From Gottschalkia acidurici 9a (GTDB taxonomy: Bacteria > Bacillota > Clostridia > Tissierellales > Gottschalkiaceae), in the NCBI RefSeq assembly GCF_000299355.1, contig NC_018664.1:1113115-1177114 (forward strand): a DNA stretch of 64,000 nt, given 5' to 3'. The position numbers and the translations under genes were made by a program. This document shows, piece after piece, positions 7,097 through 36,210 of this stretch; within the stretch, counting starts at the first letter, position 1; every line of letters starts with the position of its first letter. The notes beneath the pieces were generated by a model. That model was not told the DNA's origin, searched no databases, and saw nothing but the letters and a program-made list of their open reading frames with translations.

Positions 7097-7115
7097 AATA
7101 TTAAGTTAAAACATA

Positions 7116-7150
7116 AAACTCTCTATATGATTATAATTTATAGAGAGTTT
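7116..7150. terminator. hairpin between convergent hflX and DUF3189 gene
   Basis: A 12-bp perfect stem (AAACTCTCTATA with its complement) around an 11-base loop spans the stop codon of the minus-strand gene. The U-tracts on both sides are broken, so termination efficiency is uncertain. Confidence 0.6.
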
Positions 7151-7590
7151 AGTGTTTTCTTTACTATTTTAACCATCTCATGATAGTTTTTAACGACTCC
7201 TAAAGCAACTATAGGTCTACCAAATGATACCCAGTGTAGTCTTCTTGAAGAAAATCCACCAATCTTCATAAGAAGGTTAACGGAAGGCATGGTATCAACA
7301 AGTAATAAATCTTTCCTAAGTCCACCACCTAACTGAAATGCATCTTCTACAGCCGGAATTACTAACTCCGGAACAAACTGTCTGCTTAGAGTAAATACTT
7401 TATTATGATTTTCATCTATGCCTCTAAATATTATCTTACCTTGATCTTTTTTTTCTAAAGTATCAAAATAAGGTACATCTATAACTTCTTCTTTAGTAGG
7501 AGTTATATCAGGAGATAAAATGCCTAGATGAATAGCTGCAGCTATAGCTGAAGAATGAGTTCCACCAACACAATTATAAACTACATACAT
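7138..7590 (-). CDS. DUF3189 family protein
   Basis: Protein of 150 aa matching the DUF3189 pattern: the N-terminus MYVVYNCVGGTHSSAIAAAI has a short Gly-rich turn resembling a nucleotide-binding loop, and later segments are LGGGLRKDLLLVDTMPSVNLLMKIGGFSSR and GRPIVALGVVKNYHEMVKIV. The family is common in spore-forming Clostridia and Bacilli and has no known function. The predicted protein is soluble with alternating beta-alpha segments. The start ATG has a GAGGTGA site upstream on the minus strand. It is a single-gene unit between convergent hflX and divergent yigZ. Confidence 0.75.
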   Translation of the reverse strand: MYVVYNCVGGTHSSAIAAAIHLGILSPDITPTKEEVIDVPYFDTLEKKDQGKIIFRGIDENHNKVFTLSRQFVPELVIPAVEDAFQLGGGLRKDLLLVDTMPSVNLLMKIGGFSSRRLHWVSFGRPIVALGVVKNYHEMVKIVKKTLNSL

Positions 7591-11951: not shown

Positions 11952-12695
11952 GTGGCAGGACATTCAAAGTGGAATAATATAAAGAATAAAAAAGGTAAAA
12001 TGGATGCACAAAGGGGTAAAATGTTTACAAAATTAGGTAGATATATAACGGTAGCAGCTAGAGAAGGTGGAGATGATCCTGAGTACAATGCTGCACTTAA
12101 GAGTGCAATAGAGAAAGCTAAAGCAGAAAATATGCCTAATGATAATATAGAAAGAGCTATAAAAAAGGGTACGGGTGATTTAGAAGGTGCTAACTACGAA
12201 GAAATTACTTATGAAGGATACGGACCATCAGGAGTTGCAGTTTTCGTAGACTGCTTAACTGATAATAGAAATCGTACAGCATCAGATGTAAGACACGCTT
12301 TTGATAAATTTGGTGGAAACTTAGGCTCAACAGGTTGTGTTGGCTGGATGTTTGATAGAAAAGGATTATTAGTTATAGAAAAAAGTGATGATATTGATGA
12401 AGAAGAATTAATGATGCAGTCTATAGAAGCAGGAGCAGAAGATTTCAGTCCTGAAGATGATGTTTATGAAATATTAACTAGTGTAGAGGATTTTTCAGCT
12501 GTAAGAGATGCTTTACAAGAAGCAGGATATAAATTTTCTTCAGCGGATCTTGAGTATATTCCTCAGAATACTAGTGCCTTAGAAGATGAAAAAGATATTA
12601 AAAACATGATAAAAATGTTAGAAATGCTTGAGGACAATGATGATGTTCAAAAGGTATCACATAACTGGGAGATACCAGACGATTTAGATATATAG
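11952..12695 (+). CDS. yebC: YebC/PmpR-type transcriptional/translational regulator
   Basis: YebC/PmpR family protein of 247 aa. Members are described as DNA-binding regulators and, more recently, as factors helping ribosomes through difficult sequences; which applies here is open. The N-terminus [20 protein letters not shown] is the family hallmark, followed by [16 protein letters not shown], the [19 protein letters not shown] block and an acidic C-terminal half. The start is GTG with an AGGAGGG site 6 bases upstream. It is a single open frame of normal length, followed by the first of three related hairpin elements. Confidence 0.93.
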
Positions 12696-12782
12696 TCTAA
12701 TTAGCATCTATACTAATTGTTTCAAGAACTGTGGAGTTTGTAAAGGTTAATTTTAAGAGTTTATATATAGCTTATTGTATTA

Positions 12783-12840
12783 AGCACCTTTGAGTTTCAA
12801 TTTGTATGTATTCTACAGATGAAATTCAGAGGTGTTTTTG
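12783..12840 (+). repeat. terminator-like repeat element, copy A
   Basis: Copy A of a family of three. The left arm CACCTTTGAGTTTCA pairs along all 15 bases with TGAAATTCAGAGGTG (two G-U pairs), leaving a loop of about 20 bases that begins ATTTGTA, and TTTTTG follows. It works structurally as a terminator after yebC. Related copies lie at 14889 and 16995 in the same orientation. The surrounding 392-base gap otherwise holds a perfect palindrome at 12923 and the arsR promoter, and no gene that I can see. Confidence 0.7.
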
Positions 12841-12922
12841 TGTTGCTAGAATATTTATTTATAAATACAATTATACTAAACGATCTGATTAATTTTGGTA
12901 ATTTTGATTTTGAGCTGTGACG

Positions 12923-12950
12923 AAGTTATTTTAAATATTTAAAATAACTT
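12923..12950. repeat. perfect 28-bp palindrome
   Basis: AAGTTATTTTAAAT is followed directly by its exact reverse complement. There is no spacer and no U-tract after it, so it is not a typical terminator. It lies between the yebC terminator and the arsR promoter and could be a protein-binding site or a cruciform-forming sequence. Confidence 0.6.
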
Positions 12951-13023
12951 TAAGATAAATCATAAAACATATAGATACTATTCAATGTTATGGAGTTTTA
13001 GGTGTTAAAAAACAATAATTATA

Positions 13024-13052
13024 TTGACTATACATAGATAACTATCTATATT
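13024..13052 (+). promoter_or_regulatory. arsR promoter with overlapping operator-like inverted repeat
   Basis: TTGACT and TATATT are 17 bases apart, a good sigma-A promoter. Between them, running into the -10, lies ATAGATAACTATCTAT, a perfect 6-bp inverted repeat. A further ATAACTATTTAT lies just downstream. This arrangement is typical of ArsR-family autoregulation, where repressor binding blocks RNA polymerase. The assignment is inferred from position and symmetry. Confidence 0.6.
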
Positions 13053-13087
13053 ATAATTATAAATAACTATTTATATACGGAGGAGAT

Positions 13088-13411
13088 ATGAAAAATAAAT
13101 ACGATATAAATTCAAAAATATTTAAAGCCTTAAGTGATCCTAACAGGCTTAGAATTATCGATATGCTTTCATGTGGTGAAAGATGTGCATGTGAACTACT
13201 AGAATTTTTTGAATTTACTCAGCCTACGCTATCTCATCATATGAAAGTATTAATTGACTGTGGCTTGGTTAAAAGTAGGAAGGAAGGAACATGGAATTAT
13301 TATGCATTAGATAGTGTTAATGCAAATAGATTGGTATTGTTTCTGATGAACACTATAACTGATACTGAGAATTGTATATTTAAAGAAAAGAAATCTTTTT
13401 GTAAAGATTGA
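13088..13411 (+). CDS. ArsR/SmtB-family metalloregulator
   Basis: Winged-helix repressor of 107 aa. The helix-turn-helix is FTQPTLSHHMKVLIDCGLV (about residues 46-64), and it is preceded by ERCACELL, which carries the C-x-C pair at the position of the arsenic-sensing motif (ELCVCDL type). A Cys-containing tail (NCIFKEKKSFCKD) could also contribute ligands. It lies directly downstream of a promoter with an operator-like inverted repeat, so autoregulation is likely. The next gene, 97 bases on, is a MATE exporter, which may be its target. The C-x-C motif suggests As(III)/Sb(III) or a soft metal; no ars pump gene is present. Confidence 0.85.
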   Translation: MKNKYDINSKIFKALSDPNRLRIIDMLSCGERCACELLEFFEFTQPTLSHHMKVLIDCGLVKSRKEGTWNYYALDSVNANRLVLFLMNTITDTENCIFKEKKSFCKD

Positions 13412-13463
13412 AATTAATTATTTAAACAGTAATCTCTATGAGTGAAATGATTATTTTTAACTC

Positions 13464-13475
13464 CAACATATGTTG
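13464..13475. repeat. 12-bp palindrome before the MATE gene
   Basis: CAACATATGTTG is perfectly symmetrical and is itself flanked by CTCC and GGAG, extending a possible hairpin just upstream of the MATE ribosome binding site. It could affect translation of the exporter or bind a regulator; no further support. Confidence 0.3.
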
Positions 13476-13507
13476 TTTTGTAGGAGTTTATGAGTGAGGG
13501 TAATAAT

Positions 13508-14833
13508 ATGCAGAAAGTAGATTTAACAAAAGGAAAAGTCTCGAGGGTGATATTTGCACTGACTATTCCATTAGTGACGAGTTCATTATTGCAATTTATG
13601 TATAACTTTATTGACATGATATGGGTAGGAGGTCTTGGAAGTAATGCAGTTGCAAGTGTAGGTAGTTCAAGCTTATATGTCAACATTGGATATGCAATTA
13701 GTACAATGGTTGTTGTCGGAGCTGGAGTTAAGGTATCACATGCTGTGGGAAGTAAGGATGATGAAGGAACTAATAGATATATAAATACAGCATTTATATT
13801 AAATCTTTTTGTAGGTATTATTTTTTCAACTATTATATTAATATTCGGTAAAACTTTTATTAATTTCTTGGGAATAGAGAACTTAAATGTTGAAAAAGAT
13901 TCATTATCTTACCTTTTAATTAGTGGATCAGCTATGATAATAGTATTTTTTAATACATTATATATAAGAATTTTCTCAAGCTTTGGAAATAACAAAGTAT
14001 CTCTTATAATAAGTTCTATAGGGCTTATTATAAATATCATACTGGATCCTATATTTATATATACTTTAAATCTTGGCGTAAATGGTGCTGCTATAGCAAC
14101 AGTTATTGCAAATACTATAGTTTTAATAATGTCTATAAGAGTTTCTAAGAAGCTATATGAATTAAACTTTAGAAAGTATTTTGATTTCAATATGCTTAAA
14201 GAAATTATTTCATTAGGATTACCTAGTTCAATTCAAAGAGTTATTTTTACTATAATTAACATATTAATAGCTAAGATAATAGCAATTTATGGTGCAGATG
14301 CTTTAGCTGCACAAAAAATAGGACTTCAAATAGAATCTATAACGTTTATTATAATTGGAGGATTCAATGGTGCTACAGCAAGTTTTATTGGTCAAAATTA
14401 TGGGGCTAAAAGGTTAGATAGAATAAGCAAAGGTTACAATATATCTATTCTCATGGGAGTCATATACACCTCTATTATAACTGTAATTCTTTTGACTATC
14501 CCAGAGTTATTAGCAAGTATATTTGTAAAAGAGCAAGAGACCATAAGAATTACATCTGATTATTTAAGGATAATCGGAATATCACAGATATTTGCTGCAG
14601 TTGAGATGATAACAAATGGAACATTTATAGGACTTGGAGCGACAAGGTATGCGGCATTAATAAGTATCAGTCTGACAATTATAAGACTTCCATTAGCACT
14701 AATACTTTCTAAACTAGTAGGAGTTAATGGAATATGGTGGAGTATAGCTATATCAAGCATTTTAAAAGGTATAATAAGCTATAGTGTATATAAATTTGTA
14801 CTGTGGAGAAAGTTGAAAAATAAGTTTACTTAG
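13508..14833 (+). CDS. MATE-family multidrug/organic cation exporter
   Basis: Twelve-helix membrane transporter (441 aa) of the MATE family, exchanging Na+ or H+ for drugs or metabolites. The N-terminus carries the LTIPLVTSSLLQFMYNFIDM motif with VGGLGSNAVASVG, the usual start of bacterial MATE proteins (DinF/VmrA-like branch). The second half repeats the pattern with LGLPSSIQRVIFTIINILI and GFNGATASFIGQNYGAKR. I chose the ATG with GAGGG 7 bases upstream; an ATG 18 bases earlier has a site only 3 bases away. It follows an ArsR repressor gene and ends in repeat copy B. Confidence 0.88.
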   Translation: MQKVDLTKGKVSRVIFALTIPLVTSSLLQFMYNFIDMIWVGGLGSNAVASVGSSSLYVNIGYAISTMVVVGAGVKVSHAVGSKDDEGTNRYINTAFILNLFVGIIFSTIILIFGKTFINFLGIENLNVEKDSLSYLLISGSAMIIVFFNTLYIRIFSSFGNNKVSLIISSIGLIINIILDPIFIYTLNLGVNGAAIATVIANTIVLIMSIRVSKKLYELNFRKYFDFNMLKEIISLGLPSSIQRVIFTIINILIAKIIAIYGADALAAQKIGLQIESITFIIIGGFNGATASFIGQNYGAKRLDRISKGYNISILMGVIYTSIITVILLTIPELLASIFVKEQETIRITSDYLRIIGISQIFAAVEMITNGTFIGLGATRYAALISISLTIIRLPLALILSKLVGVNGIWWSIAISSILKGIISYSVYKFVLWRKLKNKFT

Positions 14834-14888
14834 TAATTGAAAAGGGAACTATAGATAATTTAAAAAGACTATAAGATTTAATGATTAA

Positions 14889-14947
14889 AAACGCCTTTGA
14901 GCTTTAATTTGTACACAACTCATGAATAAAGCCAAGGGTGTTTTTAT
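14889..14947 (+). repeat. terminator-like repeat element, copy B
   Basis: Copy B: the left arm ACGCCTTTGAGCTTTA pairs with TAAAGCCAAGGGTGT (one bulged A, two G-U pairs). The loop begins ATTTGTA as in copy A, and TTTTTAT follows. Several arm bases differ from copy A on both sides in a compensating way (for example G-C and C-G pairs replacing G-U and U-A), so pairing has been preserved. It terminates the MATE gene. Confidence 0.7.
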
Positions 14948-15085
14948 GTTATATAAATTTAACACTTGAGTGTAAAGTTATAGGAGTTTATTTAACAAGA
15001 TACAAATGATCGATGCTCAATGCTTTTACTATGCATATAATTTTTTTATAGATTTATGATTAATATAGAATTATATGTAAATACA

Positions 15086-15115
15086 TGATATAATAGGGTG
15101 AAATATCAACCCTAA
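15086..15115 (+). promoter_or_regulatory. extended -10 promoter plus 5' hairpin before flotillin
   Basis: TGATATAAT (TGn plus TATAAT) at 15086-15094 is a good extended -10. TAGGGT and ACCCTA, immediately downstream at the expected transcript start, form a small hairpin. The leader would be about 290 bases long, unusually long for this window. It contains one short open frame (15212) and no riboswitch class that I recognise. Confidence 0.45.
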
Positions 15116-15211
15116 AAGAGAAGGACTACTTAGAAGTTTAGATATAGAGCAAGATTATGATAAAAAGAGTAGAAAGTCTTAGATAGTTAATTTAACTAGG
15201 AGGATAATTGG

Positions 15212-15289
15212 ATGTTTTGTCAATGTAATATAATGAACACAAGGTTTATATACAATGACTTGAAAGAAAAATATCCAGATAGATTATAA
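15212..15289 (+). CDS. possible 25-residue peptide in the flotillin leader
   Basis: A 25-codon frame starts with ATG and has an AGGAGG site 9 bases upstream, as good as those of real genes here. The product begins MFCQCNIM and ends KEKYPDRL, soluble with two cysteines. It matches nothing I recognise. It could be a leader peptide, a small protein or the remnant of a gene. It is listed because of the ribosome binding site; the remainder of the 557-base gap between the MATE and flotillin genes holds repeat copy B and the promoter. Confidence 0.3.
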   Translation: MFCQCNIMNTRFIYNDLKEKYPDRL

Positions 15290-15390
15290 GAAAGAAATGA
15301 AAAGAAACTGAGAGGTTTAGAGTTCTAATAAAAAAATATTATAATAATAATTAGATATAAATAAAATATTACATAAAGGGGGAGAGAAAC

Positions 15391-16878
15391 ATGCCTGAAA
15401 TACTATTGAAATTTGGAGTACCTATAGTCGTAGCACTAGTAATTATACTATCATTTTGGAAAAAGGTACCTGCTGACAAGGCTATGGTAATAACAGGTCT
15501 TAAAAAGAGAATGTTATCTGGTAAAGGAGGTTTAATGTTACCAATACTAGAAACCTCATGTACTATATCACTAGAAGACATCTCTATGAAAACTAATGTA
15601 AGTGATGCGCCATCTAAACAAGGTATCTTTGTAAATATAGAAGGTACTGCAGTAGTGAAAGTCAAAAATGAAGAAGAAAGTGTATTTAATGCAGTTGAAA
15701 GATTTCACAATGGTGGAGCTTCAAAGACAGTAGATGTAATTAAAAGTATAGTAGATCAAATAATAGAGGGTCAATTAAGAGGAATAGTTTCTACTATGAC
15801 TGTAGAAGAATTAAATGCTGATAGAGCAGGACTAGAAACAAAATTAGAAAATGCTATAGTTAAAGAATTAGGCACAATGGGACTAATATTATCAAGTTTT
15901 AGTATTCTTAGAATATCTACTCAAGGTGGATATTTAGAAAATAAAGCAAAACCACAAATCGCACAAGCACAAGCTGATGCAGACATAGCTGAGGCAGATA
16001 GACAAAGAGATACTCAAATAAAAACAGCAGAGGCACAGAGAGAAGGACAGAGGGCAAAACTTGAAGCTGAAACAGCAATAGCAGAGTCAGAAAGAGATAA
16101 GCAAATAAAAATAGAAGCATATAGAGCAGAAAGAGAGCAAGCAAAGGCAACTGCTGATATAGCTTATGAAATTCAGGATATTCAGAATAAGGCTAAACAA
16201 GCAGAAGAGCAAGCAAAATTAGAAGAAAAGAAAGCTGTTATAAAAGAAAAGCAGTTGGTAGTAGAAGTTCAGAAACCTGCTGAAGCAAGTAAAAAAGCAT
16301 CAGAGGTAAATGCAGAAGCAGCTAAAATACAAGCTATAAAACAAGCAGAGGCAGAAGCGGAAGCATTGAAACTTAAAGCTCAGGCAGAGGCAGAAGCGAG
16401 AAAAATATCTGCACAGGCAGAAGCAGAAGCTATAAAACTAAGAGGACAGGCAGAAGCAGAAGCGATTAGATCAAAAGGATTAGCAGAAGCAGAAGCAAAG
16501 GATAAATTAGCAGAGGCTATGGCTAAGTACGGTGAGGCTGCTGTAACAGAACTTATTATAGCAAAGCTACCGGAAATAATGGAGCAAGTTGCTAAGCCAT
16601 TAGAAAAAATAGATAAGATTACTATCATAGATAATGGTAATGACGGAGCAGGAGGAGCAAGTAAGGTAGCTAAAATAGTTTCTGAGGTTGCTACTAGTGG
16701 TTTTGAAACGTTAAAGCAACTAACAGGTGTGGATGTTACAGAGGTACTTAAGTCAGTGGCAGATAGAAATGATAAAGTTGACGACAAAGTTAGTAAGAAA
16801 ATAGATTTTCCTAGTAAGGAAGGGTTTGCTGAAGACTTAGTAAGTGCAACTCGTGAAGATACGGATATAGAGGAATAG
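15391..16878 (+). CDS. floT: Flotillin (SPFH domain, YuaG/FloT type)
   Basis: Membrane-microdomain scaffold protein of 495 aa. An N-terminal membrane segment (about residues 7-23) is followed by the SPFH/band 7 domain (PADKAMVITG, through about residue 190). A long coiled-coil rich in Ala, Glu, Gln and Lys follows, with repeated EAEA motifs (AQAEAEA and variants, about 180-375), then a region ending in TELIIAKLPEIMEQVAKPL, as in flotillins, and a variable acidic tail. B. subtilis FloT organises fluid membrane regions and affects envelope enzymes and sporulation. The usual NfeD-type partner gene is not adjacent here. It has its own promoter and a GGGGGAG site. Confidence 0.92.
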   Translation: MPEILLKFGVPIVVALVIILSFWKKVPADKAMVITGLKKRMLSGKGGLMLPILETSCTISLEDISMKTNVSDAPSKQGIFVNIEGTAVVKVKNEEESVFNAVERFHNGGASKTVDVIKSIVDQIIEGQLRGIVSTMTVEELNADRAGLETKLENAIVKELGTMGLILSSFSILRISTQGGYLENKAKPQIAQAQADADIAEADRQRDTQIKTAEAQREGQRAKLEAETAIAESERDKQIKIEAYRAEREQAKATADIAYEIQDIQNKAKQAEEQAKLEEKKAVIKEKQLVVEVQKPAEASKKASEVNAEAAKIQAIKQAEAEAEALKLKAQAEAEARKISAQAEAEAIKLRGQAEAEAIRSKGLAEAEAKDKLAEAMAKYGEAAVTELIIAKLPEIMEQVAKPLEKIDKITIIDNGNDGAGGASKVAKIVSEVATSGFETLKQLTGVDVTEVLKSVADRNDKVDDKVSKKIDFPSKEGFAEDLVSATREDTDIEE

Positions 16879-16994
16879 TTGAATAATAGGTAAAATTAAT
16901 TTATACATTTGGTTGCTGAATTAGTGTTCAAGTTAGATATAAGTTATAATCTTTAAACAATGAATTTATTACATAGTTTAAGTTATAGCATATA

Positions 16995-17052
16995 TTACCT
17001 CTGATTTTCAATTTATGTTTAGTTTTCATAGATAGAAATTCGGGGGTATTTT
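16995..17052 (+). repeat. terminator-like repeat element, copy C
   Basis: Copy C: the left arm TACCTCTGATTTTC pairs with GAAATTCGGGGGTA (one mismatch and two G-U pairs), and TTTTTTATG follows. It shares the order and loop start of copies A and B but has diverged most. It terminates the flotillin gene. The rest of the 320-base gap, up to the AGGAGGG site of the polyferredoxin gene, shows no further gene. Confidence 0.65.
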
Positions 17053-17198
17053 TTATGCTTAATATACTTTAGCTAAAGTTATTTGTAGAGAATATTGTCT
17101 AATTAATGCGAAAATGGGTAGCGCTAAAACGGTATAGTATGTATAATAGAACTGAGATGCAATATGCGAGAATTAGTATAACGTAGGAGGGTAATGAA

Positions 17199-17930
17199 AT
17201 GACAATGCAAAAAACTAAAGTACCTAAAAAAAGATTAATTGCAAGAGTTAAATGCAAAGGGACAAGCTGTAATGTTAGTGAAAAGGTTATCTTAGAAGGA
17301 GTAACAGACTGTAGTGCTGCAGCTGAAATGATGGTAGATGGTGAAAGCAAATCATGTTCTTATGGATGTCTTGGATATGGATCTTGTAAAGAAGTCTGTC
17401 CATTTGATGCTATAGAAATAGTAGACGGAGTAGCTAATATAAACAAAGATAAATGCAAAGGATGTAGAAAGTGTGTTAAAGTCTGTCCAAAAGAAGTAAT
17501 AGTTATGGTTCCTATTGATCAAGAAGTTGTAGTTGACTGTAACAACAAAGAAATGGGTAAACCAGTAAAAGAAAAATGTAAAGTTGGATGTATCGGCTGT
17601 AAGATATGTGTCAAAGCATGTCCATTCTGGGCTATGGAATTCGATAACAACTTAGCATATATAAACTATGACAAATGTACAAATTGTAAAATCTGTGCAG
17701 AAAAATGTCCTACGAAAGCTATAACTGCTAAACTTGAAGGGAAGAAGGTAGCAGAAATTTCTGAGGAGAAATGTATAGGTTGTACAATATGTGAAAGGGT
17801 CTGTCCAGTAGTTGCTATTGAAGGCTATAGAGAAGAGACACATAGAGTTAAAACAGAACTATGCGTAGGATGTAGCTATTGTTCGAAAATGTGCCCAATG
17901 GGTGCAATAGAGATGAAAAGTAAAGCCTAA
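17199..17930 (+). CDS. Soluble RnfB-like polyferredoxin
   Basis: A 243-aa iron-sulfur protein with 29 cysteines. Residues 15-72 match the ferredoxin part of RnfB: VTDCSAAAEMM, then CSYGCLGYGSCKEVCPFDAI. Classical 4Fe-4S motifs follow: C86/89/92/96, C131/134/137/141, C160/163/166/170, C192/195/198/202 and C222/225/228/232. This makes about six clusters, an electron wire. The membrane helix and first cluster domain of true RnfB are absent and no other rnf genes are near, so it is not a subunit of a local Rnf complex. It probably passes low-potential electrons between cytoplasmic enzymes (inference). Partners are unknown. Confidence 0.85.
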   Translation: MTMQKTKVPKKRLIARVKCKGTSCNVSEKVILEGVTDCSAAAEMMVDGESKSCSYGCLGYGSCKEVCPFDAIEIVDGVANINKDKCKGCRKCVKVCPKEVIVMVPIDQEVVVDCNNKEMGKPVKEKCKVGCIGCKICVKACPFWAMEFDNNLAYINYDKCTNCKICAEKCPTKAITAKLEGKKVAEISEEKCIGCTICERVCPVVAIEGYREETHRVKTELCVGCSYCSKMCPMGAIEMKSKA

Positions 17931-35238: not shown

Positions 35239-36210
35239 TTGAAAGAAATAATAATAGACAAAAATGAACATAATCAAAGAGTTGATAGATTTTTAAAGAA
35301 ATACTTTTCAAATGCTAATATGGGATTTATATATAAAATGTTAAGAAAAAAGCGAATAAAATTAAATAACGCTAAAGTTAATCCTGAAGATATTATAAAT
35401 GAAGGTGATAAAATACAATTATATCTTTCAGATGAAACTATAGATAAATTTATTAAAGATGAAAAAGAGATAAAATCTGATCACAATTTAAATATAGTTT
35501 ATGAGGATGATAATATAGTTCTTATAAATAAACCAAAAGGAATACTTTCTCATGCTGTAGACGGAAACTATAAAGAAAAAAATATTGTAGATCAGCTTGT
35601 ATCATATCTTTATAGTAAAGGAGACTATAATCCAAGACTAGAAAAAACATTTACTCCATCTATATGTAATAGGTTAGATAGAAATACTAGTGGTATTATA
35701 ATAGGAGCTAAAAACTATAATACTCTTCAATGTATAAATAGAGCTATAAAAAGTGGAGATGTAAAAAAGTATTATAAATGCATAGTAAAGGGTAAAATCA
35801 AAGATAGTAAAAGTTTAAGAGGATTTTTAGTTAAAAATGAAAATAATAATAAAGTTACTATACTTCAAGATAATAAGGATAACTCTAAAGAAATAATTAC
35901 AGATATAAAAGTATTAAAGAACAGTGAAGATTATTCATTACTAGAGATAGATCTAATAACAGGAAGAACACACCAGATAAGGGCTCATCTTTCTTCCATA
36001 AATCATCCTATAATAGGAGATTTAAAATATGGAGATTCTAGAGTGAATAAATTTTTTAGGGAAAAGTATGAGTTAGACAATCAATATTTACATGCATATA
36101 AAATACTATTTAATGGATTAGACGAGTCACTATCATACTTAAATAAAAAAGAGTTTATTTGTGATATAGATAAGAAGTTAAATAATATAGAGAAAAGTTT
36201 ATTTCTTTAG
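35239..36210 (+). CDS. Pseudouridine synthase, RluA/RluD family
   Basis: Large-subunit-type pseudouridine synthase (323 aa). An S4 domain (HNQRVDRFLKKYFSNA ... GDKIQLYL) is followed by the catalytic domain with NKPKGILSH, the Asp motif CNRLDRNTSGIIIGAK, and LITGRTHQIRAHLSSINHPIIGD. The asparagine in CNRLDRNT replaces the usual HRLDR/VHRLD pattern but is common in low-GC Gram-positives. The start is TTG, with AGGTGG 6 bases upstream. The RNA target cannot be told from sequence. Confidence 0.88.
   Translation: MKEIIIDKNEHNQRVDRFLKKYFSNANMGFIYKMLRKKRIKLNNAKVNPEDIINEGDKIQLYLSDETIDKFIKDEKEIKSDHNLNIVYEDDNIVLINKPKGILSHAVDGNYKEKNIVDQLVSYLYSKGDYNPRLEKTFTPSICNRLDRNTSGIIIGAKNYNTLQCINRAIKSGDVKKYYKCIVKGKIKDSKSLRGFLVKNENNNKVTILQDNKDNSKEIITDIKVLKNSEDYSLLEIDLITGRTHQIRAHLSSINHPIIGDLKYGDSRVNKFFREKYELDNQYLHAYKILFNGLDESLSYLNKKEFICDIDKKLNNIEKSLFL

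Follow-up and report, generated by a model that had tools for sequence, protein, structure and literature searches.

Three hairpins of similar sequence stand in the same orientation behind yebC, a MATE transporter gene and a flotillin-like gene of Gottschalkia acidurici 9a. This locus raises the question of whether they are ordinary terminators, and how they came to resemble each other. The initial annotation favoured either a dispersed mini-element doubling as terminator or a regulated RNA element with a conserved loop. The whole stretch analysed, referred to below as the window, comprises 64,000 nucleotides (NC_018664.1, positions 1,113,115 to 1,177,114), and its relevant features are as follows.

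11952..12695, + strand: yebC (TACO1/YebC), 86 bases from stop to E1
12782..12839, + strand: E1, predicted hairpin terminator behind yebC, T5 at 12835-12839
13088..13411, + strand: ArsR-family regulator, first gene between E1 and E2
13490..14833, + strand: MATE transporter, 55 bases from stop to E2
14889..14945, + strand: E2, predicted hairpin terminator behind arsR-MATE, T5 at 14941-14945
15391..16878, + strand: SPFH/flotillin-like protein, 117 bases from stop to E3
16996..17054, + strand: E3, predicted hairpin terminator behind the flotillin-like gene, hairpin at 16996-17048, T6 at 17049-17054
17199..17930, + strand: multi-4Fe-4S ferredoxin-like protein, next gene after E3

Anatomy of the three elements

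All three elements announced in the initial annotation were present as strong hairpins in one orientation, followed by T5, T5 and T6, respectively, and the gene coordinates, all on the + strand, bore out their placement after yebC, the MATE gene and flotillin. Folding yielded minimum free energies of -27.5, -22.9 and -21.1 kcal/mol for E1, E2 and E3, with z-scores of -7.02, -5.95 and -6.04 (0 of 200 shuffles as good for each element). Like intrinsic terminators, each displayed a stable hairpin with a T-run directly after it on the coding strand, 55 to 117 bases behind a stop codon and in gene orientation. Termination at E1-E3 is predicted from this anatomy, and the A-run on the 5' side of E2 could make that element bidirectional. 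A simple terminator consensus scan, restricted to loops of 3-8 bases and perfect stems, did not list them.

The sequence common to the three elements, YRCCTYTGANYTTYAATTT, formed the 5' arm. A 17-base left-arm pattern derived from the three copies themselves, CCTYTGANYTTYAATTT, matched exactly at 12787, 14894 and 16998; these spacings of 2107 and 2104 bp agree with the separation of ~2.1 kb initially reported. The shared start was confirmed as well, although the layout first given as (C/T)-CC-T-x-TGA has to be corrected to YRCCTYTGA, a purine preceding CC. AATTT, taken earlier for the beginning of the loop, was placed by folding at the base of the upper stem, and the apical loops differed (about TGTATTC, ACACAACTC and TTTAGTTTT).

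The three-row alignment contained 16 stem pairs, four of which changed on both sides, four on one side and five never, while three departed by unpaired cells only; one further pair appears to be misaligned by a MAFFT gap in E2. The compensating stem changes noticed earlier were retained in part: the double changes were in mild excess (15 of 500 shuffles reached the observed 4/16, with three sequences only), but further pair types were not, 344 of 500 shuffles reaching the observed number. Such covariation is expected from selection for stable stems in related terminators, and no special RNA function is necessary to account for it.

Search for further copies

The pattern CCTYTGANYTTYAATTT had three exact matches in the 3.1-Mb genome, corresponding to E1-E3 and to nothing else in the window (mean of 0.00 matches in 100 dinucleotide shuffles of the window). 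A covariance model of the three copies scored them at 65-73 bits among the 150 of 1608 genomic candidates that were scored; the best other place among these reached 19.4 bits once the echoes of E1 and E2 on the reverse strand (32.9 and 25.7 bits) are set aside. Within the window, the same model gave weak extra matches, the best of which (7108-7160, 23.7 bits) was an AT-rich hairpin that lacks the common core. Of the 10 matches that a structural pattern returned over the genome, three were E1-E3 and one was E1 in reverse, while the other six were copies of a single sequence that we take to be 16S rRNA. When 201 bases around E1 served as a BLAST query, E2 and E3 were both missing from the matches at E 10, so that their similarity lies below the reach of BLAST.

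No fourth copy was thus found by pattern, structural-pattern or covariance searches of the genome (150 of 1608 candidates scored in the latter), and the dispersed mini-element initially suggested, for which many copies spread over the genome would be expected, is not supported because these searches gave only E1-E3. Nor did the arm occur in the hundreds or more of copies that characterize a short uptake-sequence motif. E1-E3 could still be remnants of an old mobile element, MITE- or REP-like, which settled downstream of genes and acted there as a terminator, and the genome does hold short palindromic repeat families resembling terminators. Against this reading stand the missing fourth copy, the confinement of all three copies to 4.3 kb and the absence of any link, at score 22, between the E group and other families in an 824-kb sample; it was judged improbable. 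Of the two observations that the initial annotation held against its own proposal when combined, only the lack of further copies was encountered, since covariation was in mild excess.

Similarity to other terminator-like hairpins

Leave-one-out HMMs, with the remaining two copies as training set, were run on 464 kb. Each copy emerged as the best new match on the + strand, with E-values of 7.8e-4 (E1), 0.034 (E2) and 2.8 (E3); recovery of E3 was weak, as it was outscored by two echoes of the training copies on the reverse strand. In a first catalogue of 213 unique terminator-like hairpins, compared by composition-aware alignment (22,578 pairs), E1-E3 (26.5) ranked 2, E1-E2 (24.95) ranked 3 and E2-E3 ranked 2222. 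Plain scoring of 280 hairpins gave these pairs ranks 2, 6 and 3556 of 38,980. Twenty pair-shuffled null sets contained a mean of 0.2 pairs scoring at least 25. Their best scores ranged from 20.6 to 28.6, exceeding E1-E3 in one set (28.6) and coming up to E1-E2 in at least five (25.0 to 28.6), so that similarity without proximity is borderline.

The sample was enlarged to 322 terminator-like hairpins from 824 kb, or 27 % of the genome (51,681 pairs). E2 and E3 each found their best partner in E1; E1-E3, E1-E2 and E2-E3 ranked 38, 45 and 5185, behind pairs from other repeat families. The similarity of E2 to E3 is unremarkable by itself. At score 22, the three elements formed an isolated group. 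The earlier claim that they are related as well as terminator-like is supported. The possibility, raised at the outset, that similar sequences stand at all terminators of the species proved false in the hairpin sample.

Other families of terminator-like hairpins were noticed in the genome. One dispersed palindromic family has the core AGGGTAGRYTATAG, whose half-sites displayed 33 matches at up to one mismatch versus nine for the reversed control; an 18-kb segment (1.368-1.386 Mb) holds five of its hairpins, set between unrelated-looking genes. Two MITE-like groups are mostly found at 1.54-1.575 Mb. A dispersed CTCTTTTCTA group is represented at 647901, 806599 and 2507881 and, by a weaker relative, at 2096493. 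Other terminators start with AAACACC and end with GGTGTTT. The hairpin of an IS-like element recurs unchanged at 36191 and 1573501, where the surrounding sequence is also identical over about 1.3 kb; it resembled E3 by eye but was rejected as a relative, its pairs with E3 ranking 1617th and 1622nd of the 51,681.

Proximity, spacing and flanks

For a shuffle of positions, 24 of the 322 hairpins belonging to other families were left out and 298 kept. Six pairs among these scored at least 24.9, and the two that lay within 5 kb were both E pairs. Two such close pairs were reached in 35 of 20,000 shuffles. The threshold, placed so that both E pairs would pass it, was chosen after seeing the data, as was the omission. 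That three such similar hairpins should be neighbours by chance is therefore unlikely, with the reservation that the threshold is post hoc. A general similarity of nearby terminators was considered and dismissed for the first sample, in which near pairs, E pairs left out, averaged 6.84 (n 1299) versus 6.78 for far pairs (n 36,153). The enlarged sample contained eight pairs scoring at least 24 within 5 kb versus 0.33 expected, five of them in the other repeat groups A and C, two being E pairs and one a short-stem pair at 1193174/1194817. Locally clustered similarity thus exists in this genome, mostly by way of other repeat families.

The likeness might also have arisen by convergence, three independent strong terminators obeying the same AT-rich grammar of an A-run, a CC-rich stem base, an AATT-rich upper stem and a T-run. 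Null hairpins occasionally reached such pair scores (26.5 was surpassed in one set of 20), E2-E3 was inconspicuous on its own, the flanks of the elements are unrelated, and the AAACACC and GGTGTTT ends of other terminators would agree with this. However, two of the best pairs outside other families are neighbours sharing E1, with the above shuffle frequency and its post hoc threshold, and the 17-base arm was exact only at E1-E3 in 3.1 Mb, albeit with a pattern derived from the copies. Convergence was therefore held to be unlikely, and local copying was considered the most likely source of the similarity.

The unit that would have been copied is small. Neither 80 bp upstream nor 85 bp downstream of the elements displayed homology (fractions of 0.25-0.81 of the null pairs equalled or surpassed them), and no duplicated block is consequently visible. 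The near-equal spacing suggested an ancient tandem duplication of a 2.1-kb unit, which was rejected: the genes differ and there was no identity in register, interval 12840-14885 giving 0.269-0.321 at offsets 2098-2113 and a mean of 0.292 (sd 0.014) at control offsets 1500-2699. As flanks and intervals are unrelated, the shared unit consists of the hairpin and its T-run, about 60-65 bp.

Distribution in related genomes

Forty relatives were listed, among which a genome of the same genus was absent. Matches of YebC suggest a position near Tissierellales; those named included Anaerosalibacter and Caloranaerobacter (both 73 %) and Tissierella (70-72 %), very near genomes being possibly left out. 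A search of genome contigs with the flotillin protein yielded no relative. The E element was not found behind yebC in the three family members G001-G003: an unrelated hairpin occupied this place in G002, and no hairpin of the E type was seen by eye within 200 bases in G001 and G003. As an empty-site comparison, this indicated that family members carry a different sequence behind yebC, in three genomes of which none is of the same genus.

With the covariance model, nothing above 26.8 bits was found in 30 loci of relatives. Six genomes, G001-G003 among them, gave only weak matches of at most 24.1 bits, 150 candidates having been scored per genome. The search was also applied to 120 genomes of the order, 47 candidates being scored in each genome listed. 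Matches with an E-value of 0.01 or below occurred in nine of the 119 others and reached up to 41.4 bits. In none of these nine did the top-scoring locus carry CCTYTGA, and they were taken as chance hairpins. One hairpin of G003 (23.0 bits) shares CACCTCTGAGTTTT and adjoins a gene on the other strand, presumably rpoD-like as named from its translation; it has no T-run on that strand and was also taken as a probable chance likeness. No convincing relative of E1-E3 was therefore encountered among the 120 genomes, at 47 scored candidates in each listed.

A gene cassette inserted at the terminator next to yebC was likewise unsupported, as the ferredoxin homologue lies on the same contig as yebC but about 102 kb (G001) and 213 kb (G002) away; this arrangement was not seen within 200 bases behind yebC among the loci listed.

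These comparisons bear on a regulated RNA element common to the three units, for instance a protein-binding hairpin or a 3' UTR-derived sRNA. The 5' arm is well conserved, and three nearby units could, speculatively, be co-regulated. Nevertheless, the loops of the three copies are not conserved, and the Pfam assignments of yebC, arsR-MATE and the flotillin unit suggest no common function. Rfam 15 gave 0 matches in the window; the sole hits otherwise, to two miRNA models, fell far short of the gathering scores (E 1.7 and 5.5). Because the loops differ, no Rfam family matches and no convincing relative was obtained from the 120 genomes of the order, this reading is not supported; that the element was not found behind yebC in G001-G003 also speaks against it, and it was regarded as very improbable.

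Proposed origin

Our preferred reading, to which we assign a probability of roughly 70 %, is that E1-E3 are intrinsic (Rho-independent) terminators of the yebC, arsR-MATE and flotillin transcripts, and siblings by local copying. The nascent RNA would fold into a long hairpin and the U-run would release the polymerase. Similarity together with proximity suggests that the copying of an ancestral terminator, some 60-65 bp long, took place inside the 4.3-kb stretch, conceivably through small duplication, template switching or gene conversion. The copies would then have drifted, with loops and flanks diverging and the stems being maintained, under selection for pairing, by compensating and G-U changes. 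Palindromes provoke template switching, which would fit the copying of a 60-bp hairpin without flanks.

More generally, terminators might be copied locally as units of about 60 bp without flanks and so arm neighbouring transcription units, with E1-E3 as a fossil of this process and the AGGGTAG palindromes at 1.368-1.386 Mb as a second case; this extension is tentative and rather doubtful. If local copying is true, the origin of new terminators can be studied here in a small and testable case. In practice, E1-E3 can be annotated as ordinary intrinsic terminators: the initial observation is correct, their predicted function is ordinary and they represent a modest evolutionary curiosity.

Comparison with known systems

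In the parts of the literature on terminator stem-loops and repeat families considered here, no description of small local groups of sibling terminators was found, although their absence in print is not claimed. Sequence-related hairpins are known from Neisseria and Pasteurellaceae, where, in the portions of Kingsford et al. 2007 (PMC1852404) consulted, terminators are built from DNA uptake sequences. These resemble E1-E3 but stand at many genes, their motifs generally occurring 1,000 times or more per genome, in contrast to the three copies of the E group, which are all local. The families REP, ERIC, Efa and Ype are, according to the excerpts used, also short intergenic palindromes, some near gene ends, but they are repeated throughout their genomes, which the E group is not (PMC1590033, PMC2267715, PMC12306157). 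A further likeness is offered by low-GC Firmicutes, for which the pertinent part of PMC1590033 reports that stable, AT-rich stem-loops occur a short way past stop codons, where they are followed by a T-run and very often preceded by a complementary A-run on the 5' side. E1-E3 share with these the stem-loop behind the stop and the T-run; whereas that account describes a stem-loop type and, separately, repeated families, E1-E3 are neighbours which have their sequence in common.

Multi-4Fe-4S protein

The multi-4Fe-4S protein (window 17199-17930) comprised 243 aa, less than the open frame of any of its eight best relatives, these frames extending over 274-332 aa as counted from stop to stop; the protein may therefore lack a stretch at one end.

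Other hairpin families

Sampling of terminator-like hairpins for comparison with the three sibling terminators of the window uncovered several further groups in the source genome (G000:C2).

Hairpin and repeat groups (G000:C2 coordinates)
1368409-1386307; also 1198745, 1589535, 1590578 and other places: AGGGTAGRYTATAG ... CTATARYCTACCCT palindromes (inspected loci L171, L213-L232)
647901 (+), 806599 (-), 2507881 (+); weaker member 2096493 (+): CTCTTTTCTA terminator group
1183361, 1193174, 1194817: AAACACCT...AGGTGTTT short terminator hairpins
about 1538777-1574522 (most copies); single copies near 1.46 Mb: AAACACCGTATTATT and GGACACTTTAGACAAAA MITE-like groups

The palindromic family, whose repeat of ~36 bp forms terminator-like hairpins, was found between genes of unrelated appearance and included an 18-kb cluster of five copies. 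Half-site matches numbered 33 genome-wide, against nine with the reversed control. The related terminator hairpins of the CTCTTTTCTA group were likewise dispersed, close to genes which looked unrelated, positions 647880 and 2507881 displaying 80% identity over 74 bp. The three short terminators sharing AAACACCT...AGGTGTTT were all located inside 12 kb; they may simply follow a common grammar or form a further local group.

Hairpins at three inspected loci from elsewhere in the order (L243, L244 and L154, in other genomes) had a 3' arm consisting of a G-rich, ribosome-binding-site-like stretch, a few bases upstream of ATG.

The AAACACCGTATTATT and GGACACTTTAGACAAAA groups were MITE-like, with a spacing of ~90 bp between repeats in places. 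A sequence of ~1.3 kb, identical between two places of the genome (L163, near 36191; L231, near 1573501), corresponded to an IS-like element, whose subterminal hairpin (AAATACCTCTAATTG...) lay directly 5' of a possible start codon.
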